Shown: in pieces, positions 1 through 26,813 of the stretch
Numbering within the stretch: the stretch's first letter is position 1
How the letters are laid out: the number at the start of each line of letters is the position of its first letter
From: Methyloprofundus sp.
GTDB lineage: Bacteria; Pseudomonadota; Gammaproteobacteria; Methylococcales; Methylomonadaceae
DNA length: 35,039 nucleotides
Assembly: GCA_012960135.1 (NCBI GenBank)
Contig: DUBW01000017.1
Location: 1 to 35,039 of the forward strand
Reading direction: 5' to 3'
Notes under the pieces: model-generated
Databases searched by the model: none
What the model saw: only the letters and a program-made list of their open reading frames with translations
What the model was told of the DNA's origin: nothing
Made by a program: the position numbers and the translations under genes

Positions 1-154
1 TATAGGAATAGGCTATCCGGCTATTTTGATACTCAGACTGAAAAGCGGCTAAAAAACGCTGGTAATTCGCCTCAAATAGAGTGGGGTTCATCAGGTAGAA
101 TGAATCACCGTATTGCTGAGCTATTTCGTCGATTGTATTCCAGGATAAACTCAT
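1..154 (-). CDS. Fold-type III PLP-dependent decarboxylase, N-terminal fragment
   Basis: Only the first 51 codons are inside the window; the gene runs off the left edge. The ATG at 154 lies 8 nt after the stop of the upstream ATP-grasp gene, so the two are probably co-transcribed and translationally coupled. Visible residues include an IDEIAQQYGDSFYLMNP start and a stretch ending RIAYSY. This matches the opening of the ornithine/diaminopimelate/arginine decarboxylase superfamily, where the protein begins with a 'YGTPxYVYD'-like strand and the next residues after '(V/I)AYxx' would be the K-x-N carrying the PLP lysine. That lysine lies just outside the window, so catalytic competence cannot be judged. 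The substrate is unknown. In known clusters such enzymes decarboxylate amino acids or amino-acyl carriers. Confidence 0.6.
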   Translation of the reverse strand, partial: MSLSWNTIDEIAQQYGDSFYLMNPTLFEANYQRFLAAFQSEYQNSRIAYSY

Positions 155-162
155 TATTGTCG

Positions 163-1374
163 TTAATTACTAGGTTTGAGGTCTGATTCTATGCTTAACT
201 GGAATGCGTCTTGCAGACGTGTGATCATGTTTTGGTAATTGCTTTCAGGTGGGCAATAAAACAGCGCATAGCCCAGGCTATTGCCGCTGTGCTCAAAGGC
301 AGGGATATGGTCACCAATCTGGTAGTTATAGCGGCACTCTATCAGTTCGGGGAAGGTGTTTTTTAAGTCCTCAACCGGAGTGATATAGTTCAGTTTTCCT
401 GCTGTTTCACTACCAAAAATCAGGGAAGCACAAGGCGTGAGTGAATCAGGCTGTTCCGGAATATTGCAAGGTTTGCCCAATGCATAGTTAATGGTCATAC
501 CAATTACGTCTATGCCGGAGCTATAGTAAATTAATTCGGGTATACCATTACCGCCTAATCGCGGGCTCATTTCAATAACAGTTATACGATCGCTAGAAAT
601 TTTTACATCAAAATCAATAGGGCCATCAAAGTAGCCGATGGCATGGCAGTTTTTTTCGATTTCGCTAAAAATACGTTGCTGGTCTACCGGCTTGATATTA
701 GTCGGAAAGTAGTGACCCGTAGGGATAAAGCCTTGTTTAAATTTCTGGCTAATTAGTGCATGCAATTGACCATTAATTAAAAAGCCATCGCCGCTAACAT
801 CAATGCCTTCGACAAATTCCTCAATGCTGACAGTATTTGCACGCGAAAAACTCTGCGCATACGTAAATGCATGGTGACAGAGGTCTGGGTTGAGTGTATC
901 AAGTTTGACCAAGCCGCGTGAGCCAGAGGTATCGGCCGGCTTAAATATTACGGGCACTGATAACTGGCTATAGTGCTTGTTCAGGTGGTCAATATTTTGG
1001 GCAATAAAAAACCAGGGGCAGTCAAGTTGCTGCCGATCCTGAAATTGGCGAAACAGTGCTTTATTAGATAAGGTTTCGGCAATACTCAGTTTGCAGGCTG
1101 TCAAATTGAGATGACCGGCAACATAAGCGACTGTGGGAGTAGCAATATCGGAAGCAAAAGTGACAATGCCATCAATCTCCAAGTCCTTTGCATAGGCGAG
1201 GACAGCTTCGCGATCTGCGGTACTGCAGTTGATGCTCTGATGGGAATGTCGGTGGCCAATATTATCCGGGATATTGTCTACAGTAATAACAAAGCAATTG
1301 AGTTCCAGCGCTTTTAAAATGATAGGTAGCTGAGTATTGCTGGCACCTAAAACTAATAATCTGGGTTGCTTCAT
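163..1374 (-). CDS. ATP-grasp superfamily carboxylate-amine ligase-like protein
   Basis: A 403-residue protein with the layout of a stand-alone ATP-grasp ligase. The N-terminal pre-ATP-grasp domain opens with a nucleotide-fold strand and loop (LLVLGASNTQL, about residues 6-16). A central ATP-binding strand reads VIFKPADTSGSRG (about 142-154). The C-terminal half carries the metal-binding motif IEMSPRLGGNG. Enzymes of this superfamily activate a carboxylate as acyl-phosphate and couple it to an amine or other nucleophile. It is followed 8 nt later by a PLP decarboxylase and sits divergent from a glycosyltransferase, which suggests that it makes or attaches an amino-acid-like substituent for a surface glycan; that role is inference. 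No strong Shine-Dalgarno precedes the ATG at 1374. Substrate unknown. Confidence 0.75.
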   Translation of the reverse strand: MKQPRLLVLGASNTQLPIILKALELNCFVITVDNIPDNIGHRHSHQSINCSTADREAVLAYAKDLEIDGIVTFASDIATPTVAYVAGHLNLTACKLSIAETLSNKALFRQFQDRQQLDCPWFFIAQNIDHLNKHYSQLSVPVIFKPADTSGSRGLVKLDTLNPDLCHHAFTYAQSFSRANTVSIEEFVEGIDVSGDGFLINGQLHALISQKFKQGFIPTGHYFPTNIKPVDQQRIFSEIEKNCHAIGYFDGPIDFDVKISSDRITVIEMSPRLGGNGIPELIYYSSGIDVIGMTINYALGKPCNIPEQPDSLTPCASLIFGSETAGKLNYITPVEDLKNTFPELIECRYNYQIGDHIPAFEHSGNSLGYALFYCPPESNYQNMITRLQDAFQLSIESDLKPSN

Positions 1375-1604
1375 TGATTCTGTTAAATAAGGTTAACTAG
1401 GTACAAGACTGGTCGAGGGGCTAATAGTATGATTGACTGCAAATTATCCCATATCTAAACTTTTATAACTATTGGGCATTAAAATTCAATTGCTTTAAAA
1501 TGTCTGTTTGCACTTGAAAATAGGGTTTAAGAAATATTGAAATACAGTATGATATTTTTCAATTGATTCCAGTTCTCCTGCTTACATCGTCCAAATACTG
1601 AATT

Positions 1605-2531
1605 ATGCAACTTTCCATCGTAAGTACCCTATATTATTCAGAGCCGTATCTAGAAGAGTTTGTTGAGCGTATTTGCGCCAGTGTAGAGCAGATAAGTAAC
1701 GATTATGAATTGATTCTAGTCAATGATGGCTCACCCGATGATTCCCTGCACAAAGCTTTAAGCTTACAACAACAGTATGCGCGGCTGAAAATTGTCGATT
1801 TATCACGCAATTTCGGACATCATGAAGCAGGTATGACAGGTCTGGAACAAGCGCAAGGTGAGTATGTTTTTCTGATTGATTCCGATTTAGAAGAAGCGCC
1901 CGAATTAATGCTGGATTTCTGGCAGGCTATGCAGAATGATCAGAATGTCGATGTTATTTATGGTGTGCAGGAGCAACGTAAGGGGAAGTGGTTCGAGCAG
2001 TTTACAGGGTATCTGTTTTATATTATTTTTAATAGGCTCAGTCCTGTGAAAATATCGACTAATGCTCTAACCGTTCGATTAATGAAAAAAAACTACGTCC
2101 AGGCGGTTACTCAATATCAGGAAAGAAGTTTGTTTGTCGCGGGCATTATGGCACATGCGGGTTTTAATCAACAGCCATGGGTGGTAACAAAAACATCCAA
2201 AGAAAGTAGCAGTTATACCTTTGCCAAACGACTCAGGCTGTTTCTTACCTGTATCACTTCATTCTCTACAAAGCCATTGGAATATTTGTTTAGCCTGGGC
2301 TGTGGTCTCTTGTTGCTGAGCATTCTTGCAATGCTCGTTGTTGGTTTTAACTATTTAATCTTTTCTGCTAGTATTTCTACTATTACTGCGATTTTTCTAG
2401 CGGCGGGCCTAGTAATAGGGAGTGTTGTCAGTTGCACTGGTTTACTCGGCCTATATCTTGCCCCTATGGTGACTGAAATAAAACAAAGACCGCGCACTCT
2501 GATTAAGACGATTTTCCCGGGTGTGGATTGA
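1605..2531 (+). CDS. GT2 family glycosyltransferase with two C-terminal membrane helices (ArnC/DPM1-like)
   Basis: The 308-residue protein has a GT-A catalytic domain at residues 1-210 and two hydrophobic helices near 229-253 and 259-288. Family signatures are SIVSTLYYSE at the N-terminus, LVNDGSPDDS (38-47), LSRNFGHHEAG (66-76) and the DxD-type metal site IDSDLEEAP (91-99). This architecture is that of polyisoprenyl-phosphate glycosyltransferases such as ArnC, GtrB and DPM1, which move a sugar from a nucleotide donor to undecaprenyl phosphate on the inner leaflet. It is divergent from the ATP-grasp gene across a 230-bp spacer. Its sugar cannot be read from sequence; the aminotransferase in the same locus suggests an amino sugar. 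A candidate terminator follows its stop. Confidence 0.85.
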   Translation: MQLSIVSTLYYSEPYLEEFVERICASVEQISNDYELILVNDGSPDDSLHKALSLQQQYARLKIVDLSRNFGHHEAGMTGLEQAQGEYVFLIDSDLEEAPELMLDFWQAMQNDQNVDVIYGVQEQRKGKWFEQFTGYLFYIIFNRLSPVKISTNALTVRLMKKNYVQAVTQYQERSLFVAGIMAHAGFNQQPWVVTKTSKESSSYTFAKRLRLFLTCITSFSTKPLEYLFSLGCGLLLLSILAMLVVGFNYLIFSASISTITAIFLAAGLVIGSVVSCTGLLGLYLAPMVTEIKQRPRTLIKTIFPGVD

Positions 2532-2535
2532 TACG

Positions 2536-2595
2536 CTCTTGTTATCGGGCGGGCCACAAAGCGTACCCGATAACGTGACGCTCAAGAGTGTTTTT
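2536..2595 (+). terminator. Candidate intrinsic terminator after the GT2 gene
   Basis: A 9-bp perfect inverted repeat (gttatcggg at 2541-2549 and cccgataac at 2566-2574) is nested in an outer short match (ctcttg 2536-2541, caagag 2583-2588). It is followed by a run of five T at 2591-2595. The position, directly behind the stop of the glycosyltransferase, fits transcription termination. The loop is long and the stem is not directly next to the T run, so efficiency is doubtful. Confidence 0.45.
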
Positions 2596-3046
2596 GAGAG
2601 TGTTAAGCGGAAAATAAACCTGATGTTAAAAAAGCGAAGGTGGTCACTGTGAGGCTAGGCTCTACTAGAGAGAATGAAGTCAAATTACGGAGTGCATAAG
2701 CTTGCGAAAAGTAAGGTTTGACGTGGAAAAATATGATGTTTCTTTTCAAAGTCTGTCGGGGGAATAAAAAAATCAGAATGATCAAAAGGGAGTCCCCGAC
2801 GCTACAATATTGAGTGCTGAGAAAGGAAGCTTGGATGGCTACCACGAAAATATCTTCATAATTCTGACCTTTACTACTTAAAAATGAACAGAGCTGTTTT
2901 TCAAGGCCCTGAAAGTTATGAACACTGCGTAATGCAATTGGAATATTAAAGCTTATTTCTCAAGGATAAGAGGACTTTAGAAATGAAAAATTCATTTCTA
3001 AAGAGGATGTTTTTTTCTGGGTTGGAAAAGTTAGTAGATTCAGAAA
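2596..3046. other. Gene-poor spacer before a broken ParE-like toxin
   Basis: No convincing gene is seen here. A minus-strand open frame at 2603-2845 has no recognisable motif and no ribosome binding site. Just before 3047 the plus-strand frame reading FISKEDVFFWV (about 2990-3022) resembles the C-terminal part of small antitoxins that precede ParE/RelE toxins (compare 'FISHEDVxxWV'). It has a stop shortly upstream and runs into the toxin frame, so at best it is a relic of the antitoxin. A 7-bp inverted repeat gtcgggg/ccccgac (2755-2761, 2794-2800) is also present. Confidence 0.4.
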
Positions 3047-3386
3047 ATGGCTAAAAACTATAATGTTATTTCGGCTAAAATTGCGAACGAAGATTTGATA
3101 GAGATCATTAAGGTTATTAAATTGGATAGCCCTAATGCAGCAAAAAACACCCTTAATAAGATTAAAAAGAAGTCATTTTCACTTGATTCCTTCCCTCAAA
3201 GAGGCCAAGATGTTCCTGAACTTAAAGAACAAGGAATCTTTCAATATCAAGAATTAATCATTCAGCCATGGAAGGATGATTTATAGAGTTTGTAGCAGTA
3301 CGGTTTATGTTTTGTCCATTGTTGATGCTAGAAGAAATGTAGAAGACATATTATTAAATCGATTTATTAGGGATGGTCGTAAGTAA
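3047..3386 (+). pseudogene. ParE/RelE-family toxin, frameshifted
   Basis: The first 75 codons give a typical ParE-like protein: an ANEDLIEII helix, SPNAAKNTLNKI, then FPQRGQDVPEL and YQELIIQPW. After W75 the frame reads KDDL and stops at 3286. Shifting by one base at 3272-3273 (one A too many in tggaagg) restores the family's usual continuation: RMIYRVCSSTVYVLSIVDAR, then R-N-V-E-D-I-L and an FIRDGRK ending with stop TAA at 3384-3386. The toxin therefore has an intact C-terminus in the wrong frame. The cognate antitoxin, normally directly upstream, is not present as an intact gene. ParE-family proteins poison gyrase and RelE relatives cleave mRNA; this copy should be inactive unless the insertion is a sequencing error. 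Confidence 0.8.
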
Positions 3387-3672
3387 TATGTTTAGATGTT
3401 TTGGTACAAAGACCACCACATCAGGATATATCGCACCCTTTGATGTATCTGGAGTTACGCACAATCAACTACTTTAAATATATTAAATGCTGTTGAAGAG
3501 TCAAGAAAAGGCTAATCAGGTTTGCAGTTGATCATCGGTAATATTACTCATTTCAAAGGTCTTTTTTATCCTGGTTCTGAGCGTTGCCAGAGGTCATTGA
3601 GCGTCTGCCCGCATCAACTGAACTTGGTGTGATCTATGTTGCTGGTATATAAACTTTTCATATTTGAGATTA

Positions 3673-4866
3673 ATGCATAAGGAATCTAAGCAAGCACATC
3701 AAGCCCACCTGGATTCTCTGCGTGGTATAGCAGCAATAATAATTGTCATTACCCATTATATTGGAGCTTTTTTCCCTTTTGCAGCCTTTGCAAATCAGGG
3801 GAGTTATCAGCAAAAGCACTTATTAGAAGAAATTTTCTTTTATCCTCCTTTTGGGCTGGTTATAGCGGGTCATCTGGCTGTTTGTCTGTTTTTTATCCTG
3901 AGTGGTTATGTGCTTAGTTATAATTATTTGGGGACTCCTGGAAAGAAAATAAAATTGTTGGCCGCGATTGCAAAGCGACCTATTAGATTAGGTGGGGTTG
4001 TTTTAGCGACTACCATTTTAAGTGCCCTACTCTGGGCGAATAACTTATATTATAATGCTCAGTTGGTTGAAATAACTACGTCGAAGCCCTGGTTTTTTGA
4101 TTTATGGAGAGGGCAGTTTGCCTTAAAATATTTCCTGATTAATACGGGTAGTTCATTATTTGATAGTGCCGATATTTATAATATTTCACTATGGACCATA
4201 CAGGTTGAATTATATGGATCTATACTGGTTTTTTTGACGCTGATATTGTTTGCTAATTTTAAGTATAGGTGGGTCGTTTTTTCTATATTGATACTGGTTT
4301 TTGCAAAAAGCTTTTATCAGGGGTTTTTTTTAGGGATGCTACTTGCGGATTTGGTTAAACATAAACCGGTTGAACTTTCCGTTAGGCTGAAACAAACGAT
4401 AGCCGTTTTATTAGGGTTGATGTTTTTTTATCTGGGCTCCTATCCGCATTACGCAAATATAGAATATATAAAAACCACCGTGTATCATTGGCTGCCTGCT
4501 GATACTGGATATGAAGGCGGCTATCCTATGCTTGCAGCTTTATTGTTGTTCTGCTTTATCTGTTTGAATGATCGAGTAAAAAAGGGCTTGCAGTTACCTG
4601 TATTTAAATATCTAGGGAAGGTATCTTATGGCGTGTATGGTGTGCATATATTGGTGATTGGTTCGCTGTCATCCTGGTTGTTTTTATTGTGTTATCAGCA
4701 GGTAGGCTACCTGGGGGCATTTATAATCGCTTTTGCTGGGGGTTTAACTGTCATCATTGCAACAGGCCACTTAATCACGGTTTATGTGGATAAGCCAGCT
4801 ATCAGACTGGCTAATTATGTCGGCAATAAATTCGTGGCTGCGTTGCAGGCTTTTTTTAAAATATAA
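3673..4866 (+). CDS. Acyltransferase 3 family membrane protein (OafA-like)
   Basis: A polytopic membrane protein of about 397 residues. The N-terminus carries the family signature LDSLRGIAAIIIVITHY, containing the Arg and the conserved His of membrane O-acyltransferases. A second conserved block, FFILSGYVLSYNYL, follows. Near the C-terminus YLGKVSYGVYGVH is the usual 'lG+iSYgiYl.H' motif. These enzymes transfer acetyl or other acyl groups onto extracytoplasmic sugars of O-antigen or exopolysaccharide. I place the start at the ATG at 3673, preceded by GAGAT; an in-frame TTG at 3664 would add three residues. The 286 bp upstream contain nothing I recognise. The gene is followed after 35 bp by an acetyltransferase and probably forms a unit with it. 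Acyl donor and acceptor are unknown. Confidence 0.85.
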   Translation: MHKESKQAHQAHLDSLRGIAAIIIVITHYIGAFFPFAAFANQGSYQQKHLLEEIFFYPPFGLVIAGHLAVCLFFILSGYVLSYNYLGTPGKKIKLLAAIAKRPIRLGGVVLATTILSALLWANNLYYNAQLVEITTSKPWFFDLWRGQFALKYFLINTGSSLFDSADIYNISLWTIQVELYGSILVFLTLILFANFKYRWVVFSILILVFAKSFYQGFFLGMLLADLVKHKPVELSVRLKQTIAVLLGLMFFYLGSYPHYANIEYIKTTVYHWLPADTGYEGGYPMLAALLLFCFICLNDRVKKGLQLPVFKYLGKVSYGVYGVHILVIGSLSSWLFLLCYQQVGYLGAFIIAFAGGLTVIIATGHLITVYVDKPAIRLANYVGNKFVAALQAFFKI

Positions 4867-4901
4867 AAGAATCTAACATCATTACTTATTTGGAAAGGAA
4901 T

Positions 4902-5567
4902 ATGCCAGAGAAAATTGTTATTTATGGAGTGAGTGCATTTGCAGAAATGATGTATCACAATTTCACGCGCTATAGTGAGTATAGAGTCGTCGCCTTTTGT
5001 GTAGATCAGGAATATATGCAGGAATCCTCTTTTTGCCATCTGCCGGTGGTTGCTTTTGAAGAGATGGCGGAATTATACCCGGCAAAGGATTATAAGATGT
5101 TTGTTGCCATTGGTTTTAGTCGTATGCGTAACCGGGCATTAATGTTTGATAAAGCCAAGGCTAAAGGCTATCAACTGGTAAATTATATTAGCCCTCAAGC
5201 CATTATTCGTGAGGACTTAGTGATTGGTGAAAATAATGTTATTCAATCTAGTACCGATATCGATATTTTTGTCAGCATAGGCAATAACAATGTTTTCTGG
5301 ACCGGCTGTATACTGGGGCATAATGTAGTCGTGGGTAATCATAACTATGTATCGGGTAATTGCGGTCTGGGCGGGAATTGTGTGATTGGTGATGCCTGTT
5401 TTATCGGTAATGCGGCGTGTATGGTAAATAATATTAATATTGCCGATGAAACCTACTTGGTGGCCGGCGCTATTATCGTTAGAAGTACCGAAAAATCTTG
5501 CCAGTACCATGGTAATCCCTCCAAGCGGGTTGCTCGCCATGCAGATGCCGGTATTGTTATTACATAA
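4902..5567 (+). CDS. NeuD/PglD-type left-handed beta-helix acyltransferase
   Basis: The 221-residue protein has a small N-terminal nucleotide-fold domain (KIVIYGVSAFAEMM) and a C-terminal hexapeptide-repeat helix from about residue 95 (isoleucine/valine-x-G-x-N/D repeats such as VIGENNVI and VSIGNNNVF). It ends with the GNPSKRVA motif typical of sugar O/N-acetyltransferases. A His in the ILGHNVVVGNH coil is the likely catalytic base. The ATG at 4902 is preceded by AAGGAAT, a good ribosome site, so the upstream in-frame TTG at 4890 is not used. PglD and NeuD relatives acetylate bacillosamine or sialic-type sugars with acetyl-CoA. Here it could N-acylate the 4-amino sugar made by the aminotransferase at 8317-9450; that link is inference. 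Confidence 0.8.
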   Translation: MPEKIVIYGVSAFAEMMYHNFTRYSEYRVVAFCVDQEYMQESSFCHLPVVAFEEMAELYPAKDYKMFVAIGFSRMRNRALMFDKAKAKGYQLVNYISPQAIIREDLVIGENNVIQSSTDIDIFVSIGNNNVFWTGCILGHNVVVGNHNYVSGNCGLGGNCVIGDACFIGNAACMVNNINIADETYLVAGAIIVRSTEKSCQYHGNPSKRVARHADAGIVIT

Positions 5568-5589
5568 AGCTGGTGCAGCAGTTTCAGAC

Positions 5590-5955
5590 TTAAGCGCGGC
5601 TGGTAATCACGATACCTAATACGATCAATGTCAGGCCGATGATTTTATAGGCATTGACCGATTCTTCAAAGACAAACACCGAGAACAGGAATACCAATAC
5701 AAATGCCAGGCTCATAAACGGATAGGCATAGCTGATTTCAAATTTAGTCATTGCCAGGATCCAGAAGAGCGATGCGATAAAGGCAGAGGCTAGGCCAGAC
5801 ATTAAAAACGGGTCGAGAAATAATTTGGCCAAAAACAATAGTTTCTCGGTTAACTGCAGGGGCACGGCATCATATTGCGCAATACGCCATTTCAGCATTA
5901 ACTGGCCGTAGACAGTAAATGCAATCGTGCCGAAGATGTAGAAATATCCGATCAT
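5590..5955 (-). CDS. EmrE/EamA-type small transporter (ArnE/ArnF-like)
   Basis: A 121-residue protein with four predicted membrane helices: residues about 3-22, 44-67, 74-93 and 98-118. The ending (KIIGLTLIVLGIVITSRA) and the E in FVFEESVNAYK are typical of the small multidrug resistance/EamA superfamily. The length matches the half-size subunits ArnE and ArnF, which flip undecaprenyl-phosphate-aminoarabinose across the inner membrane. It is the last gene of a minus-strand unit, 14 bp behind the GT-C-like protein. Flipping of a lipid-linked sugar is the likely job in this context; a drug or cation exporter role cannot be excluded from sequence. It converges with the acetyltransferase gene, 22 bp apart. 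Confidence 0.75.
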   Translation of the reverse strand: MIGYFYIFGTIAFTVYGQLMLKWRIAQYDAVPLQLTEKLLFLAKLFLDPFLMSGLASAFIASLFWILAMTKFEISYAYPFMSLAFVLVFLFSVFVFEESVNAYKIIGLTLIVLGIVITSRA

Positions 5956-5969
5956 GGTATAAAGTTTAT

Positions 5970-8324
5970 TTAGCTAAAAAGGTAGTTTAAAGCGACTACT
6001 CTGAATGAGTAAAATGAAAGTACCATTAAGGTAATGACACTGCTTATTAACACTGCTTTTTCCATACGATTCCACAGGGGGAGCATCTTCCAGAAAAAGA
6101 CCAGTAGAATTGGAATAATCGGAAATATATAGCGGCCCTGAGGCTGAAAATCATAAAGCCAGGAAAAAAGTATACTCATCAGCAGACCACCAGCAATAGC
6201 GGTGATCGTTACTGCAGTGAATAGTTTATATCGCCAGTTGGCCTTGAAGATGGCATGCCGTAACACTAATAGAATGACGATGCCGTAGATAAGCATGATA
6301 TAGGTGTAATACCATTTTGGTGAGTATTGCGCATAGTAACCATAGAGGCCTGTAAAGCTTTTGAATGTCATTTTATGCCACTGCCATTCTGGCTGGAAAA
6401 TTTCCGCCAGGCTAACCCCTTTTGCCTTTAAGCGTAAGCCCGGATAAGATTGTTCTGTTTCGGCAATCGATGGCTTAAAGTCAGGTGCCGCATGTTGCTC
6501 GGCATAGGCGATGCGCTGTTCCAGCTTGTTGCTGCCATTGATTGCATGATCTATCCCGTGACGGGCAAAAAAGATCGATGCGCCGATTAATGAAAAAAAC
6601 AGGCACTTATAGATAAATGTTTTTTTCTGTTTTACAAAGAATAACAGCTCCCATAAAAGCAACGAGAATACAAATAATATAAACAGCAGATAATTGGTTT
6701 GCTCTATGCTTAGTATGCCTAATAGAACCCCTGGAAATACAGCATCTTGCCAGCGGGCTAAAGCTCTGTCTGTATTCAGAAACCGGTTTAGTGAGCTTTG
6801 TTTGTTCGCCAGTTGCCATGCCAGTAATAGACTAATAAAAAGAACAAAACCACCGCGATTGGCATAGGCGTATAGATACCAAGTTTGCGGAGTGCACAGT
6901 AGCGGCGTTAGGAAAATCAGTAAGCGCTTGTTGCTCCAGTTCATGATGAATAACAGTAAAAATAGCAAGGCATTGAAAGCTCTGTTGATAAAGGTTTCAT
7001 CAGCAAACAATTGTTGTACAAGCAGGCTGAATTTACCGGCAAAAAAATAACTGATACCCAGATCATCCAGTCGCGAGGTTGCCCAGGGTTTCTGGTAAGC
7101 TCCGGTTGCGCGCGGGTCGCCAACTGTTGGGGGTAGCCAGTATTGACTATAATACTTTGTGGACTCTATATGTGCGCCTTCATCAGGATGAATATTATAA
7201 TCAGCCTGCCAGGCGAGGCAAAATACTAGTGCAGAGGCAAATAAAAAACAGCTTTTGATAAAGTTTTCGTAGAACAAATTCCATGTATAAGGCTTCTTTT
7301 TTTTGTAATACCAGACACTATAGAGCAGTAAAAGGTATATCCCCAGAAAAACAGCAACAGAGGGTACCAAAGTCACAGCGTTACTTTGTTTGTTGAGCAT
7401 AACTTCTGATTGCTGATAGCTTTGTTCTTTAAAACCGGGGGCGCGTATAGTTAAAGTATCCAGATTCTGTAAAGCCTGATTATTACCAGATTCTAAATAG
7501 AAAACGTCAATATTGCTAATATCTGCACTGGCTACAGAGGTTTGATTTGCTCCTGATGGAAGCTCTATTTTCTGGGCTCTGGTCGTTGATATCTTTTGTC
7601 CTTTATCACGCCAGAAGAGCTTTGCTGTTTCTGGGTTTTTCAGGTGAGTGTCCAGAGAGATGGTGGTATCGTTAAAGGTAAATAAATAGCTTAACAACAC
7701 CGAGGCTAAAATCAGAAGAATCGCTTGAGTGAGTGCTTTTTTGCGAAAAACAGTGATTGTTATCAGAGCGAATAATAGTAGATAAAAGCTGGGGTTAATA
7801 ATGTGAATGACTCTGAATTCAATTTGTGGGTCATTGCCTAAGCTCTGAAATTCGATATAAGGCCGAGAATCATCGGGTTTGTTGATTATTTTTATTTCAT
7901 TGGATTCTGAACGGTCATTAACGGGGTTTAAATCAACAGGGAAATAATGCAATGAATAAAGTTGAGTACTATATAGCTTGATGAGCGCTTGTTGATTGAC
8001 CGGGTCTATTCTAAAGCGAGTTGATTGATTAAAACCATCAATCCAGAAATGATAGCTATGCCTGCCTGCTTTTACCTGGTCAGTCCTGGATTGTGACTCA
8101 GAAAAGGAACCCAGTTCATTTGCCCAGAATACCTGTATCTCACTGTTGGTATCAGCATCCATATCAATCTTGATTAGTGAGACTGTTGATAGGTAGCCGA
8201 TAAATGACAAGATAATAAATAATAACACCAGCCATACACTTTGTTTGAAGGGGACAATACCCCGCAGTGGTCTTAGTTTTGGTTGGGTAGAAGACGTTGA
8301 TGCTGCAGAGTCAATGCTAAGCAT
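5970..8324 (-). CDS. Large GT-C-like polytopic membrane protein
   Basis: 784 residues. A membrane helix near 28-50 is followed by a roughly 130-residue soluble part, helices near 180-193 and 199-216, a second soluble part, and helices near 318-340 and 356-372. From residue 376 the sequence NIHPDEGAHIES is the acidic 'DE' loop found after the first helix of GT-C glycosyltransferases (compare DPDEGRYAE in ArnT) and also in DUF2142 membrane proteins. The second half has about eight further helices. GT-C enzymes take the sugar from a polyprenyl-phosphate donor outside the inner membrane. The ATG at 8324 overlaps the end of the aminotransferase gene by 8 bp, indicating translational coupling. The N-terminal 350 residues are an addition not seen in plain GT-C enzymes; I do not recognise the domain. 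Confidence 0.65.
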   Translation of the reverse strand: MLSIDSAASTSSTQPKLRPLRGIVPFKQSVWLVLLFIILSFIGYLSTVSLIKIDMDADTNSEIQVFWANELGSFSESQSRTDQVKAGRHSYHFWIDGFNQSTRFRIDPVNQQALIKLYSTQLYSLHYFPVDLNPVNDRSESNEIKIINKPDDSRPYIEFQSLGNDPQIEFRVIHIINPSFYLLLFALITITVFRKKALTQAILLILASVLLSYLFTFNDTTISLDTHLKNPETAKLFWRDKGQKISTTRAQKIELPSGANQTSVASADISNIDVFYLESGNNQALQNLDTLTIRAPGFKEQSYQQSEVMLNKQSNAVTLVPSVAVFLGIYLLLLYSVWYYKKKKPYTWNLFYENFIKSCFLFASALVFCLAWQADYNIHPDEGAHIESTKYYSQYWLPPTVGDPRATGAYQKPWATSRLDDLGISYFFAGKFSLLVQQLFADETFINRAFNALLFLLLFIMNWSNKRLLIFLTPLLCTPQTWYLYAYANRGGFVLFISLLLAWQLANKQSSLNRFLNTDRALARWQDAVFPGVLLGILSIEQTNYLLFILFVFSLLLWELLFFVKQKKTFIYKCLFFSLIGASIFFARHGIDHAINGSNKLEQRIAYAEQHAAPDFKPSIAETEQSYPGLRLKAKGVSLAEIFQPEWQWHKMTFKSFTGLYGYYAQYSPKWYYTYIMLIYGIVILLVLRHAIFKANWRYKLFTAVTITAIAGGLLMSILFSWLYDFQPQGRYIFPIIPILLVFFWKMLPLWNRMEKAVLISSVITLMVLSFYSFRVVALNYLFS

Positions 8325-9450
8325 AAAAACTTTCTATAGTTTTGGTGATATGTTTTACTTCTGCATCTTGCAGGCTAAAATACAGCGGCAGGCGAACAAT
8401 GAGCCGGCTAGTTTCCAGAGTATGCTGATCATTACCGATAAATTCCCCGTACTGTTTGCCCATTTCGGTATTATGCAATGGTAAATAGTGAAAAACGGCA
8501 TGAACCTTATTTTGTTTTAAATAGGCTAAGAGCTGGCCTCTAATTTCAGCCGATTGGGTTTTTAAATAAAAAATATGCCCGTTTTGCTCACAGGAGTCGG
8601 GTATTACGGGTAAAGATATCAGCCCTTTATTTTCCAAAGGTTTAAGTGCTTGATAATAAGCAGACCAGATAGCACAGCGCTTTTCTTTGATTTTTTGAGC
8701 CTGCTCCAGGTTAGCGTATAAAAAAGCGGCCTGTAATTCGCTCATTAAGAAACTGGAACCGATATCCTTCCAGGTATATTTATCTACTTCACCACGAAAA
8801 AACTTGCTCCGGTCGGTGCCTTTTTCGCGTATGATTTCGGCACGCTCGACAAAGCCTTTATTGTTCAGGACGATTGCGCCACCTTCACCGCAACTATAGT
8901 TTTTGGTTTCATGAAAGCTAAAGCAGCCTATATCGCCAATAGTTCCTAATGCCTGACCTTGATAATCTGAAAACAAACCATGGGCCGCATCTTCGATCAC
9001 GAGTAGATTATATTTTTGCGCTAGCCTCATGATGATGTTCATATCACAGCTAATACCTGCGTAATGCACTGGAACTATGGCAACGGTTTTATCACTGATC
9101 GCTTGCTCTATCAGTTGCTCATTAATATTTTGCGTATCGGGCCGGATATCGACAAACACACACCGGCCGCCTCTGGAGACAAAGGCATTCGCCGTGGAGA
9201 CAAAGGTATAACTGGGCATAATCACTTCATCGCCGGGCTTAATATTTGCCAGAATTGCCGCCATTTCGAGTGCGGCGGTACCAGAGGAAGTCAGTAATAC
9301 TTTATTAGCGTTAAGCTCGGTTTCCAGTAGGGTTTGACAGCGCTTGCTAAATAAGCCATCGGCAGCAATTTGATCGGAATGAATAGCCTGTTCTATGTAT
9401 TTGAGTTCATTGCCGGTTAAGGCGAATTGATTAAAAGGAATTTGGCGCAT
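8317..9450 (-). CDS. wecE: dTDP-4-amino-4,6-dideoxygalactose transaminase (WecE/RffA-like)
   Basis: 377 residues, close to the length of E. coli WecE, with near-colinear motifs: IPFNQFALTGNE at the start, VLLTSSGTAALEMAA (51-65), GDEVIMPSYTFVSTANAFV (73-91), VPVHYAGISCDM, VIEDAAHG with Asp154, and CFSFHETKNYSCGEGG with the PLP lysine at about residue 183. It belongs to the DegT/DnrJ/EryC1 family. The closest match I recognise is the enzyme that converts dTDP-4-keto-6-deoxyglucose and glutamate to dTDP-Fuc4N in enterobacterial common antigen synthesis. It is the first gene of a three-gene minus-strand unit with the GT-C-like protein and the small transporter. dTDP-sugar precursor genes (rmlAB) are not in the window and must come from elsewhere. 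Confidence 0.88.
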   Translation of the reverse strand: MRQIPFNQFALTGNELKYIEQAIHSDQIAADGLFSKRCQTLLETELNANKVLLTSSGTAALEMAAILANIKPGDEVIMPSYTFVSTANAFVSRGGRCVFVDIRPDTQNINEQLIEQAISDKTVAIVPVHYAGISCDMNIIMRLAQKYNLLVIEDAAHGLFSDYQGQALGTIGDIGCFSFHETKNYSCGEGGAIVLNNKGFVERAEIIREKGTDRSKFFRGEVDKYTWKDIGSSFLMSELQAAFLYANLEQAQKIKEKRCAIWSAYYQALKPLENKGLISLPVIPDSCEQNGHIFYLKTQSAEIRGQLLAYLKQNKVHAVFHYLPLHNTEMGKQYGEFIGNDQHTLETSRLIVRLPLYFSLQDAEVKHITKTIESFYA

Positions 9451-22900: not shown

Positions 22901-24133
22901 TTAAATAAAACTTTCATCCACAAGCTCTATCCAGTGTTTAACCGGAACGCTGGTCTGTCTCTGCAAGTGTAATTGACAGCCTATATTAGCGCTAACTATT
23001 AGTTCAGGCTGATGTTTTTGCAGTGCGCTGAGCTTATTAGTTAATAGTTTTTGTGCTAGTTCAGGCTGTAATATGGAATAGGTACCGGCAGAGCCACAGC
23101 ATAAGTGTGCATCATCAACTGGGCTAAGATTAAAGCCGCAGCGAGTAAGGATAGACTCGACCATGCCATCGAGTTTCTGGGCGTGTTGCAAAGTGCAGGG
23201 GCTTTGGAATGCAATATTGCGCATAGATGGTTTAATGCGGGTTAGGGGTAATTCTTCTGCTGCTAGAATTTCACTGATATCTTTAGCGAGTTCACTGACT
23301 TTTCTAGCTTTATCGGCATAGTGGGCATCCTGTTTTAGCAAATAGCCATATTCTTTGATTATAGCGCCACAGCCGCTGGCAGTAATAACAATAGCCGATA
23401 CGCCTTGCTCGATATAAGGCCACCAGGCATCAATATTACGGCGCATAAAATCCAGTGCTTCCAGCTCTGCGGATAAATGTTGGCTTACAGCGCCGCAGCA
23501 ACCTGCTTGGGCAGGTGTAATAAGCTCTATGCCGAGTTTATGTAAAATATTCGCAGTGGCGCTATTGGTATTAGGAGTAGCTACAGACTGCACGCAACCT
23601 TGGAAGATCAGCATTTTCGGTACTTGAGTTGGTTTTGTCAGGCTATAATCAGGCAGTGATCTGCTTACTTGCCTGTCAGGAATATGTTGTTTTAATTTGC
23701 AGGGAAGTAAAGGCTTAAATAACTGCCCGGTTTTTACTAACAGCGCAAATCGCTGTGGAAAGGGGAGCAACTTGCGTAGTGTATAACGCATGAGTCGAGA
23801 TAATGCCGGGCGAGTAGCCTGGTCATTCATCAATTGACGGCCTATATCGACTAGACGGCCATACTGCACTCCTGAAGGGCAGGTAGTTTCACAGGCTCGG
23901 CAACTAAGACAGCGGTCTAGATGGGTCTGAGTTTTGTTGCTAACCGCCTGACCTTCAAGTATCTGTTTTATTAAATAGATACGGCCTCTCGGGCTATCTC
24001 GTTCATCACCTAATAATTGATAGGTGGGGCAGGTCGCGTTACAGAATCCGCAGTGCACGCAGGAGCGGATAATATTATCGGCTTCCTTGCCAGTTGCTGT
24101 GTTTAAAAAATGTTTTGTTGTTTGGGTTTGCAT
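22901..24133 (-). CDS. glcF: Glycolate oxidase iron-sulfur subunit
   Basis: 410 residues, as in E. coli GlcF. Two [4Fe-4S] ferredoxin motifs are seen: CVHCGFCNATCP (Cys25, 28, 31, 35) and CLSCRACETTCP (Cys75, 78, 81, 85). Two CCG domains follow, with AGCCGAVSQHL and HLCCGSAGTYS. It passes electrons from the GlcD/GlcE flavoprotein to the quinone pool. It follows glcE after 128 bp rather than overlapping it. Glycolate oxidation recovers 2-phosphoglycolate-derived carbon or supports growth on glycolate. Confidence 0.93.
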   Translation of the reverse strand: MQTQTTKHFLNTATGKEADNIIRSCVHCGFCNATCPTYQLLGDERDSPRGRIYLIKQILEGQAVSNKTQTHLDRCLSCRACETTCPSGVQYGRLVDIGRQLMNDQATRPALSRLMRYTLRKLLPFPQRFALLVKTGQLFKPLLPCKLKQHIPDRQVSRSLPDYSLTKPTQVPKMLIFQGCVQSVATPNTNSATANILHKLGIELITPAQAGCCGAVSQHLSAELEALDFMRRNIDAWWPYIEQGVSAIVITASGCGAIIKEYGYLLKQDAHYADKARKVSELAKDISEILAAEELPLTRIKPSMRNIAFQSPCTLQHAQKLDGMVESILTRCGFNLSPVDDAHLCCGSAGTYSILQPELAQKLLTNKLSALQKHQPELIVSANIGCQLHLQRQTSVPVKHWIELVDESFI

Positions 24134-24261
24134 AAAATGGCTCTTCTAAATTTCGAGTGGGTAAAATAAATTAAGTTACCCAAAGGTTTATTATGGAAAT
24201 CCTAATATGAAACAAAGAACTCATAAAATGAGGTTAGCTAAGGCAATCTTATCTGAGGGCT

Positions 24262-25335
24262 TTAAAATTCAGCATACATACGGCCGATATTAAAAATACC
24301 GTGCGGGTCGAACGCCTGTTTTAAGCGACGGTGTAGGGCTAATAAAGGGGCGGGTAATGCCTGGAAGACAGCGTCACGTTGAGCGTTACTACAATACAGT
24401 GTTGTGTGGCCATTTAATAGTAGGTCATTGCAGCGAATTTCTTGCGATGATAAGTCGCTTTTAAGCCAGCGCAAAGCACCACCCCATTCATATAGCATGT
24501 CTCCTGTCAGAGATAAAGCAGGCGTGTTAGATGCTAATGAAAAACGCCATAAAGCATGCTGACTTTGAAAAAAAGGGTGGGTTTGATTGCATATTGATCG
24601 CCAGAATTCATGCGCATTATTTAACTGCTCACCGCCTATAAGCTGGCCAGCATTATTAATCGCTTTTTCTATACCGGATAGGCGAATATAAAGCCTATTC
24701 TGATAAAAACAACTGGCGCTAATGGGCAGGGGAAGCCCAGACCACTGATGTAGTTTTGCCAGAGCTTCAGTAATAGTAATAGATTGCACCAAGGTGATCT
24801 CAGCTTCTGGCATAGGCACGACCTTGATCGATGCGTCCATGATGACACCTAAGGTACCTAGGGCGCCAGTCATTAAGCGGGAGACATCATAGCCGGCAAC
24901 GTTTTTCATGACTTCACCGCCGAATGATAATAATTCAGCCTTGCCATTAATTATGGTTGTGCCTAATACATAATCTCGGGCAGCGCCCGTATAGGGCCGA
25001 CGTGGGCCGGAAAAGTTACCTGCTAAGGTGCCGCCTAACGTTGTTTTCTCATTATAGACAGGCGGTTCAAATGCCAGCATTTGCCGGTTTTCTGCCAGCG
25101 CTTGTTGAATGTCTTTTAACGGCGTGCCTGCTCGCGCTTTTATTACTAATTCTGTGGGTTCGTAACTGATAATCCCCTGGTGTTGTGCAAGACTTAATAC
25201 ACTATCTGCACTGACTTTGCGGCCATAAAAATCTTTTGATCCACCTGCTTTAATGGTTAAACTATTACCCGTAGAGATAGCTTGCAGGACTTTGGCTTGC
25301 AATTGCTGGCTGATATCGTTATCTATAACAGACAT
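24262..25335 (-). CDS. glcE: Glycolate oxidase FAD-binding subunit
   Basis: 357 residues. The FAD-binding 4 (PCMH) domain has IKAGGSKDFYG near residue 28, TPLKDIQQALAENRQMLAFEPP, GGTLAGNFSGPRRPY and VLGTTIINGKAELLSFGGEVMKNVAGYD. The end HRRLKQAFDPHGIFNIGRM is the GlcD/GlcE C-terminal signature. The ATG at 25335 overlaps the glcD stop by one base (TAATG), so the pair is translationally coupled. It is required for the activity of GlcDEF although GlcD holds the substrate site. Confidence 0.92.
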   Translation of the reverse strand: MSVIDNDISQQLQAKVLQAISTGNSLTIKAGGSKDFYGRKVSADSVLSLAQHQGIISYEPTELVIKARAGTPLKDIQQALAENRQMLAFEPPVYNEKTTLGGTLAGNFSGPRRPYTGAARDYVLGTTIINGKAELLSFGGEVMKNVAGYDVSRLMTGALGTLGVIMDASIKVVPMPEAEITLVQSITITEALAKLHQWSGLPLPISASCFYQNRLYIRLSGIEKAINNAGQLIGGEQLNNAHEFWRSICNQTHPFFQSQHALWRFSLASNTPALSLTGDMLYEWGGALRWLKSDLSSQEIRCNDLLLNGHTTLYCSNAQRDAVFQALPAPLLALHRRLKQAFDPHGIFNIGRMYAEF

Positions 25336-26813
25336 TAAAAGCGTTCCAGTTCCGGGTGAGTGAGCTTGCCCTGATGTACATGCATGGCACCAAATTCGGC
25401 GCAGCGGTGTAAACTCGGCACTGCTTTGCCTGGATTTAACAAGGCTTTGGGGTCGAATGCTGCCTTTATTGCATGAAACTGAGCTAGCTCGATTGTCTCA
25501 AATTGCACACACATCTGGTTTAATTTCTCCATACCGACGCCATGTTCGCCGGTTATGGTGCCACCTACAGCAATACACAACTCTAGGATTTGAGCACCAA
25601 ATTCTTCGGCACGTTTCAGCTCGCCGGGAATATTGGCGTCATAAAGTATTAAGGGGTGTAAATTGCCATCGCCCGCATGAAAAACATTGGCTATGGCAAG
25701 GCCATTTTGTTGCGACATTTCTGCCATCGTCTGTAAAACTCGAGCCAGGTTTTTCCGGGGGATGGTGCCATCCATGCAGTAATAATCGGGAGAGATACGA
25801 CCGACGGCAGGGAACGCAGCCTTGCGACCTTTCCAGAAAGTGAGGCCTTGTTGTGCATCTTTTGCGGTGCGAACTTCAGTGGCTCCACTGTTATTTAAGA
25901 GTTCGCGTACTGCATCGGTATGCGTGGCAACTTCTATTTCGCTGCCGTCTAGTTCGCATAATAAAATAGCGGCGGCATCGACTGGATAACCGGCATGGAC
26001 AAAATCTTCTACCGCTTGAACAGCCAATTTATCCATCATTTCCAGGCCAGCAGGAATAATGCCTGCGGAAATGATATCGGCAACGGCTGTTCCTGCTTTG
26101 CTGATATCATCAAATGCAGCTAATAAGGTTTGCGCGCATTCTGGCTTGGGGAGAAGTTTGACGGTCACTTCGACAATAACTCCTAGCATGCCTTCGGAGC
26201 CGGTCATTAAGGCGAGTAAATCATAACCAGGGCAGTCTAGCCCAGTACTGCCTATAGTAATTAGGTCGCCTGCTATGCTTATGATTTTTATTTGCTGAAT
26301 ATTATGTACCGTTAAGCCATATTTTAAGCAATGTACGCCGCCAGAATTTTCCGCGACATTACCGCCGATAGTGCAGGCAATTTGTGAAGAGGGGTCAGGT
26401 GCATAAAATAAATCAAATTGAGCCACCGCTTGTGAAATAGCCAGGTTTCGTACGCCAGGCTGAACTCTAGCCGTGCGTAATTCGCTATTGATAGCAATGA
26501 TGCTATTTAATTTTGCAAGCGAAAGTAACAGCCCATTCTCATTAGGTAATGCGCCGCCAGACAGTCCTGTTCCAGCCCCTCTGGCGACGATGGGCAGGTT
26601 TATTTTATGACAGAGGCGTAATATGCTTTGTACTTGCTCGGTTGTATCAGGCAAGACAACAATTAAAGGCATTTGTCGATAAGCCGAGAGCGCGTCACAT
26701 TCATAAGGTCTAAGATCCTCTGGTTGCGATAAGATAGCATCAGCGGGCAGAACATCTTGTAGTTGTTGAATTAATTGCTGGCGATTTACGCCTTCAATTG
26801 AAGTATGGCTCAT
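25335..26813 (-). CDS. glcD: Glycolate oxidase catalytic subunit
   Basis: 492 residues, close to the 499 of E. coli GlcD. FAD-binding blocks are PIVARGAGTGLSGGALP and CTIGGNVAENSGGVHCLKYG with the following ALMTGSEGMLGVIVEVTVKL. The C-terminal FAD-oxidase domain has the metal/substrate motif NVFHAGDGNLHPLI and GTITGEHGVGMEK. It oxidises glycolate (or D-lactate-like 2-hydroxy acids) to glyoxylate. It is the first gene of glcDEF, and no glcC regulator or malate synthase gene adjoins. The D-lactate dehydrogenase alternative is weakened by the presence of glcE and glcF. Confidence 0.93.
   Translation of the reverse strand: MSHTSIEGVNRQQLIQQLQDVLPADAILSQPEDLRPYECDALSAYRQMPLIVVLPDTTEQVQSILRLCHKINLPIVARGAGTGLSGGALPNENGLLLSLAKLNSIIAINSELRTARVQPGVRNLAISQAVAQFDLFYAPDPSSQIACTIGGNVAENSGGVHCLKYGLTVHNIQQIKIISIAGDLITIGSTGLDCPGYDLLALMTGSEGMLGVIVEVTVKLLPKPECAQTLLAAFDDISKAGTAVADIISAGIIPAGLEMMDKLAVQAVEDFVHAGYPVDAAAILLCELDGSEIEVATHTDAVRELLNNSGATEVRTAKDAQQGLTFWKGRKAAFPAVGRISPDYYCMDGTIPRKNLARVLQTMAEMSQQNGLAIANVFHAGDGNLHPLILYDANIPGELKRAEEFGAQILELCIAVGGTITGEHGVGMEKLNQMCVQFETIELAQFHAIKAAFDPKALLNPGKAVPSLHRCAEFGAMHVHQGKLTHPELERF

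Follow-up and report, generated by a model that had tools for sequence, protein, structure and literature searches.

A probable three-component glycosylation system for an N-acylated 4-amino-4,6-dideoxy sugar, with an orphan GT-C transferase, in Methyloprofundus and related methanotrophs

What does a methanotroph do with an aminotransferase of 4-amino-4,6-dideoxy sugar synthesis whose gene lies among those for a lipid-phosphate sugar synthase, a half-size flippase and a large membrane protein of no known sequence family? This question is raised by a contig of Methyloprofundus sp. (DUBW01000017.1, assembly GCA_012960135.1), which was analysed over its entire length of 35,039 nucleotides and is referred to below as the window (contig C17 of genome G000, 2.5 Mb, 90% complete). 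The original prediction, made from the letters of this stretch alone, had described positions 1605–9450 as an Arn-like toolkit, and every open reading frame (ORF) that it named was found where it had been placed. In our view, held with a probability of about 70%, the locus encodes a three-component (Gtr-type) extracytoplasmic glycosylation system for N-acylated 4-amino-4,6-dideoxygalactose (Fuc4N) with an orphan GT-C transferase. Each component belongs to a known kind; what is new is their combination, together with the GT-C family and its modules. The activities, the acyl group and the acceptor discussed below are proposals drawn from family membership, a predicted fold and gene linkage.

The nature of the sugar is indicated by the aminotransferase (8317–9450, minus strand), a member of the DegT family that exceeds the cut-offs of the NCBIfam WecE equivalog NF008687 (593.3 bits, cut-off 375) and of TIGR02379 (584.8 bits, cut-off 434.85). 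Its two best matches in the Protein Data Bank (PDB) are dTDP-4-amino-4,6-dideoxygalactose transaminases (E values of 1.2e-146, 4piw, and 4.4e-146), with ArnB far behind (3.1e-42). Equivalog membership makes dTDP-Fuc4N the most likely product of this WecE, which agrees with the Fuc4N-type sugar proposed earlier. RmlA and RmlB, encoded elsewhere in the genome (contig C16, 484 bits against a cut-off of 360.65, and contig C45, 496.4 against 365.1, respectively), would supply dTDP-4-keto-6-deoxyglucose, and its amination by WecE would yield dTDP-Fuc4N.

Loading of the sugar onto a lipid would fall to the GT2 protein encoded at 1605–2531 (plus strand; Pfam Glycos_transf_2, E 2.8e-24). Its nearest solved structure is GtrB sll0501 (8.3e-41, 5ekp), followed by ArnC (4.8e-30, 9hwj), both aligned over almost the full length (residues 2 or 3 to 303 of 308), and a long hydrophobic stretch (residues ~228 to 292) lies towards the C-terminus. 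The best NCBIfam match, PgfS, reaches 146.3 bits and misses the cut-off of 500; copies aligned from five relatives, one of them a fragment, are 53–72% identical. The likeness to GtrB and ArnC bears out the earlier assignment as a lipid-phosphate sugar synthase, and the protein is predicted to transfer the sugar onto undecaprenyl phosphate (Und-P) at the cytoplasmic side. A dimer of the 121-residue SMR/EamA-type protein encoded at 5590–5955 (minus strand; EamA, 31.2 against 28.2 bits), the single SMR match in this genome at E 0.01, would then pass the lipid-linked sugar across the membrane. Three hydrophobic segments of this protein pass the scan, and a fourth, N-terminal one was recognised by eye only. 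Similarity to EmrE is weak (E 0.14), and Thr14 stands opposite the central Glu14 of EmrE in an aligned piece of 0.8 bits; the same Thr is invariant in all nine aligned copies. As stated in PMC9574504, lipid SMRs often lack the central proton-binding Glu. The half-size flippase recognised earlier is thus retained, with Thr14 in place of that residue, as a predicted small flippase of the lipid subtype.

The third component would be the 784-residue protein encoded at 5970–8324 (minus strand), whose frame, counted from the first possible starts, overlaps that of WecE by eight bases in the window's genome and in two others (G631, locus L108; G653, locus L111). No Pfam family was matched above cut-off (up to E 0.1) and no NCBIfam model at all; DUF5052 (E 0.0016, below cut-off) was rejected because only one of four members of the family shows it. 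None of the eight core sequences matched a Pfam GT-C family when E values up to 10 were requested (HMMER filters drop most of those above 0.1), and no GT-C was found among the PDB sequence matches of the profile searches. SAKe proteins and one antiporter subunit gave sequence matches with the core (E 0.00052 to 1.3), which were dismissed as short or compositional. A GT-C fold had been set beforehand as a test of the original prediction. The structure of the core (residues 322–784), predicted from an eight-sequence alignment, has a mean predicted local distance difference test score (pLDDT) of 69.0 and a predicted template modelling score of 0.75, the other four models ranging from 42.3 to 65.8 in pLDDT. 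With this model, the first 13 Foldseek ranks in the PDB are all GT-C proteins by title, with probabilities of 0.97–1.00, against 0.14 for the highest-ranked other fold. The matches comprise Pmt4 at the top, ArnT with and without Und-P (the Und-P-bound form at rank 2), oligosaccharyltransferase complexes, ALG9, ALG3, ALG12 and Pmt1-Pmt2. A full-length model computed from two sequences (mean pLDDT 39.2) was discarded. We assign a GT-C fold to the protein with moderate confidence, as modelled. A motif HPDExxH is kept in all eight family members, its five specified residues being invariant, and reads HPDEGAH in the window (residues 379–385; 7170–7190, minus strand). In several GT-C structures an Asp follows the first membrane helix (PMC11127046); by analogy, D or E of HPDExxH is a candidate catalytic acid.

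The same protein carries tandem modules, overlooked in the original gene list as was the ATP-grasp/decarboxylase pair described below. A hidden Markov model (HMM) trained on the first N-terminal copy in each of five proteins detected further copies in the relatives and, after one additional round, another one in the window protein, a total of three in the G654 protein (1,108 residues) and four in that of G653 (1,344 residues), giving two to four per GT-C. In the window, module 1 covers residues 49–166 (7827–8180, minus strand), a copy that was among those used to build the HMM, and module 2 covers residues 223–300 (7425–7658, minus strand; 5e-10 in the second round), a copy outside the model, which contained the second copies of relatives. 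The modules are predicted to be beta folds, judging from strands in the discarded low-confidence full-length model, and may hold the acceptor. Additional domains outside the cytoplasm, in some cases carbohydrate-binding, are described for other GT-Cs in PMC11127046.

Some more distant proteins were seen around this family. An open frame of about 525 residues in G114 (locus L113, 6844–8415; contig C1, match at 338846–339085) matches the GT-C beta module only (1.6e-7), and the gene after it resembles DltB below the cut-off (165.8 bits against 375). The C-terminal 78 residues of the window GT-C match proteins of 809–823 residues, two in the window's genome (L006, 104–2548, and L007, 163–2634; contigs C23 and C86) and one in G138 (L005, 601–3030), whose C-termini are distantly like it and which were set aside as distant GT-C relatives. 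The L007 protein, the one scanned, has an N-terminal GtrA flippase domain (48.5 against 26.1 bits) and looks like a flippase and a GT-C in one chain.

How widely the set recurs was addressed at several levels. A scan of genome contigs with the single GT-C protein found no relative, and a two-row profile found three, one from the methanotrophic endosymbiont of Bathymodiolus puteoserpentis (NZ_FQTQ01000193.1) and the other two titled Methylococcales and Methylococcaceae. The symbiont sequence shares its gene map with contig C193 of G098, a genome listed under the window's genus. Order-wide (400 genomes requested, 311 searched, threshold E 0.01), 11 of the 311 genomes matched, and the GT-C core is present in eight (G000, G098, G628, G631, G647, G652, G653 and G654); G114, G590 and G052, with short GT-C matches only, were left out. 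Class-wide, a profile search of 369 genomes, a thin sample drawn from a larger group, returned the window's own genome only, as did a second search (369 genomes) once a 36-residue match in G538 with internal stops had been dropped as chance; none was found in the viral contigs scanned. Within these searches the GT-C relatives are confined to the same bacterial group, and a wider spread is possible given the thin class sample.

Seven of the eight genomes have a WecE over the cut-off, which adjoins the GT-C in six. SMR is likewise present in seven, with the best copy at most 5 kb from the GT-C in six, and GT2 copies of at least 48% identity occur in seven, two of them (G098, G631) as fragments. 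NeuD or a candidate GNAT gene stands beside the set in seven, as judged from the neighbourhood only, with no genome-wide search. The exception is in each case G652, which is 73% complete and whose GT-C begins at a contig end. GT2, SMR and GT-C share a single contig in four genomes (G000, G628, G647 and G654); in G098 and G631 SMR and GT-C are together and the GT2 fragment lies on a separate contig. Locus L076 (G647) is a compact run on one strand consisting of wecE, gtC, an acyltransferase candidate, gt2 and smr, with flanks that appear unrelated by eye. Members of three genera carry the set, in several different gene orders. SMR matches total only 10 in the eight genomes, and given this rarity the repeated position of the gene beside GT-C is far from chance, as judged with no formal test. 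The co-occurrence anticipated by the original prediction is therefore observed, and the genes for the predicted synthase, flippase and GT-C lie together in related genomes, as in three-component systems.

The aminotransferases themselves were compared in a tree of 29 sequences, two rows of which are very long (program warning). The seven WecEs of GT-C genomes, including the unlinked copy of G098, fall on one side of a branch with support of 98/93, and the WecE of G114, from the same genus, lies outside this clade. As four of the seven come from one genus, host relatedness accounts for part of the clustering. Loci around WecE were counted in the 27 genomes with a copy over the cut-off (22 + 5; loci L051–L071, L107–L112 and the window; L072–L074 excluded, WecE below cut-off). 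Within 9 kb of WecE, a GT2 relative (E <1e-20) occurs in 20 loci, SMR in 12, GtrA in six and NeuD in 10, and GT2 and a flippase are both present in 15. SMR and GtrA were never found together at these loci and appear mutually exclusive; WbqC-like genes also recur there by eye, one of them (L071) confirmed by Pfam. A membrane protein of at least 450 residues directly adjoins WecE in 16 of the 27 loci, against 17 of 262 for other ORFs of at least 250 residues there. Among the 16, two are no GT-Cs, namely a sulfate permease (G114) and a Wzy_C protein (G098), one belongs to the known GT-C family PMT_2, and most of the remainder are unscanned or without a GT-C Pfam family. When 17 proteins, mostly these large neighbours together with some of other kinds, were compared all-against-all with phmmer, only five pairs matched. 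WecE seems to be the constant donor end of several such systems with differing GT-Cs.

N-acylation of the sugar is suggested by the NeuD/PglD-type gene at 4890–5567 (plus strand), whose product just passes the cut-off of TIGR03570 (162.3 bits against 160.8) and matches PglD (1.4e-16, 3bss), a perosamine N-acetyltransferase and VioB in the PDB. All three of these enzymes acylate 4-amino sugars. NeuD would acylate the amine of dTDP-Fuc4N, perhaps with an acyl group provided by the ATP-grasp ligase and decarboxylase encoded at the beginning of the window. The operon L076 has no NeuD and in that place encodes a 257-residue protein, a candidate N-acyltransferase to be taken as a lead only. A WecE neighbour in L056, considered as a WecD-like acetyltransferase, was rejected, being a methyltransferase. 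The acyltransferase-3 membrane protein encoded at 3664–4866 (plus strand; Acyl_transf_3, 88.5 bits against 31) might O-acylate the sugar, its role being unsure; L078 also has an acyltransferase-3 gene, to which phmmer with the window copy gave no match at E 1e-3.

The ATP-grasp gene (163–1374, minus strand, divergent from GT2; ATP-grasp_4, 36 bits against 27) encodes a protein with PDB matches to 4dim (7e-25) and the L-amino acid ligase BL00235 (3.3e-14). Next to it, the contig end truncates the gene of a pyridoxal phosphate (PLP)-dependent decarboxylase of the ornithine/diaminopimelate/arginine type, with its start at 2–154 (minus strand; open frame 2–166, minus strand, MSLSWNTIDEIAQQYGDSFYLM...). 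By eye this start resembles the decarboxylases beside ATP-grasp in L107, L130 and L131, whose best NCBIfam models, FslC and LysA, stay under cut-off. The pair lies divergently beside GT2 in four of the eight genomes (G000, with the decarboxylase cut, G098, G628 and G653). For the G628 decarboxylase the closest match is N-citrylornithine decarboxylase (2.4e-38), with BtrK as a further match (1.2e-17). BtrJ and BtrK act in butirosin synthesis, where they assemble an acyl group from an amino acid. By analogy the pair hints at an unusual acyl group and might make a BtrJ/BtrK-like acyl donor for Fuc4N; the two genes may equally well have a metabolic function of their own.

Among known systems, the Gtr-type three-component systems (GtrA/GtrB/Gtr*, with SMR and MATE variants) are similar in that a lipid-phosphate sugar synthase, a small flippase and a GT-C are encoded together, and the GT2 of the locus is closest to GtrB among solved structures. 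Unlike these, the locus has its own aminotransferase gene for what would be an N-acylated 4-amino-4,6-dideoxy sugar donor, an SMR flippase, and a GT-C outside known sequence families with two to four beta modules. The Arn pathway (ArnA-F, ArnT) has in common with the locus an amino sugar on Und-P (probable in the locus), an SMR-type flippase and a GT-C fold, and differs in starting from UDP-glucuronate rather than dTDP-4-keto-6-deoxyglucose and in using an ArnE/ArnF pair instead of a single SMR gene. All Arn equivalog cut-offs are missed (ArnB 184.8 against 631, ArnC 117.6 against 529, ArnF 47.8 against 99, ArnE 37.4 against 92), and neither an ArnA formyltransferase nor an ArnD deformylase is among the seven proteins encoded at 163–9450, the rest of the genome being unsearched. 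Of the Arn-like toolkit the general logic survives and Arn membership does not; the Gtr-type frame fits better. Enterobacterial common antigen (ECA) synthesis through WecE, WecD and WecF resembles the locus in WecE and in the presumed acylation of Fuc4N, and has WecF where the locus has an Und-P-sugar synthase and a GT-C. WecF (PF07429, the Fuc4NAc transferase of ECA), the one ECA gene searched for in this comparison, was found in none of the eight GT-C genomes (a match was obtained in one of 14 controls, E. coli), and ECA is disfavoured for this reason. The three-component system of GT136, which uses a pentofuranose (Kelly et al. 2024, PMC11127046), likewise has a GT-C that forms a family by itself and carries an additional extracytoplasmic domain rich in beta structure, and likewise comes with dedicated flippase and donor genes. 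It is unlike in that its donor derives from phosphoribosyl pyrophosphate and its flippase is of the MATE type, and the likeness is one of described features. No description of a Fuc4N-carrying three-component system or of this GT-C family was found in a literature search of partial coverage, and prior work may exist.

In the Gtr-type system proposed here, the 784-residue GT-C would finally attach the sugar outside the inner membrane to an acceptor, perhaps held by the beta modules and most likely a surface polysaccharide. Several observations speak against this proposal. Nothing in the set was recognised as an acceptor gene. The fold scores are weak (best E 3.5e-3; TM-scores by query length 0.28–0.49 and root-mean-square deviations of 5.5–16.2 over ranks 1–13) and come from a core-only model with the pLDDT given above. 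The window set is split over both strands and interrupted by a 1.1-kb gap holding a ParE-like gene. In G653 the GT2-NeuD-SMR half lies on a different contig from GT-C, and in G098 WecE is on a different contig from GT-C, beside the Wzy_C protein. As to acylation, the five other NeuDs scanned remain under the TIGR03570 cut-off (149.3–156.2 bits), and the 257-residue candidate of L076 scores poorly, with WecD as its best model (19.2 bits against 219) and GNAT at 15.9 against 23.6.

These points have to be weighed together with other explanations of the locus. The mixed strands, the gap and the ParE-like gene would suit chance neighbours in a decaying stretch without joint function, a reading that we regard as highly improbable in view of the recurrence of the set in different arrangements across three genera and of an SMR that, with 10 matches in eight genomes, is still within 5 kb of the GT-C in six. 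Alternatively, WecE might feed an ordinary Wzx/Wzy or ECA-like polysaccharide while the GT2-SMR-GT-C trio carries another sugar. The Wzy_C neighbour of the G098 WecE would fit such a division, as would the 12 of 27 WecE loci in which no pair of GT2 and flippase was found within 9 kb, some of them cut by contig ends; set against the adjacency of WecE and GT-C in six of eight genomes, with the eight-base overlap in three, the single clade of these WecEs and the lack of WecF in all eight, this is distinctly unlikely.

A true analogue of Arn, which would place the sugar on lipid A or on core phosphates of the lipopolysaccharide and so alter the surface, can draw on Und-P-bound ArnT as the second-ranked fold match and on the relatedness of GT2 and SMR to ArnC and ArnE/F. 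We consider it quite improbable, given the missed cut-offs of ArnB, ArnC, ArnE and ArnF and the absence of formyltransferase and deformylase from the seven locus proteins. An acylated amine, moreover, would not add the positive charge that 4-amino-4-deoxyarabinose (Ara4N) adds, and the presence of tandem beta modules points to a larger acceptor. A protein acceptor (pilin, flagellin or lipoprotein) in place of a polysaccharide is unlikely, though it has the top fold match on its side, Pmt4 being a protein O-mannosyltransferase, together with PgfS as the best NCBIfam match of GT2. The GT-C fold by itself is uninformative on the acceptor, gene maps show no candidate acceptor gene beside the set (most flanking genes are unscanned), and the tandem modules recall the carbohydrate-binding modules of other GT-Cs described in PMC11127046. 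A Gtr-type system acting on a surface polysaccharide is the reading that we prefer.

A more far-reaching version of this reading is put forward only tentatively. The 784-residue protein would found a glycosyltransferase family without earlier description, with stacked extracytoplasmic beta modules (two, three or four by lineage), and would transfer Und-P-Fuc4N with an acyl group derived from an amino acid and made by the ATP-grasp/PLP-decarboxylase pair in the manner of BtrJ/BtrK, to a surface polymer of methanotrophs, the mussel symbiont included; across the order, WecE would be the constant donor end and the flippase (SMR or GtrA) and GT-C would be swapped. If the Gtr-type proposal is true, a 4-amino-4,6-dideoxy sugar joins the donors of three-component glycosylation, Fuc4N is used outside ECA, and a GT-C family that lends itself to in vitro tests is founded. 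With a mussel symbiont among the carrier genomes, host surface recognition is a natural question.

The ParE-like gene in the gap (3065–3286, plus strand; 24.6 bits against 23) is of the toxin-antitoxin type. Two small genes next to the GT-C of G098 (L008, 4380–4933), without an NCBIfam match at 1e-10, look by eye like another toxin-antitoxin pair. Among the other genes of the window, those for DnaB, alanine racemase, GAPDH and pyruvate kinase appear ordinary, and at 22901–26813 (minus strand) two FAD-linked oxidase genes and one for an iron-sulfur protein together resemble a glycolate oxidase set.

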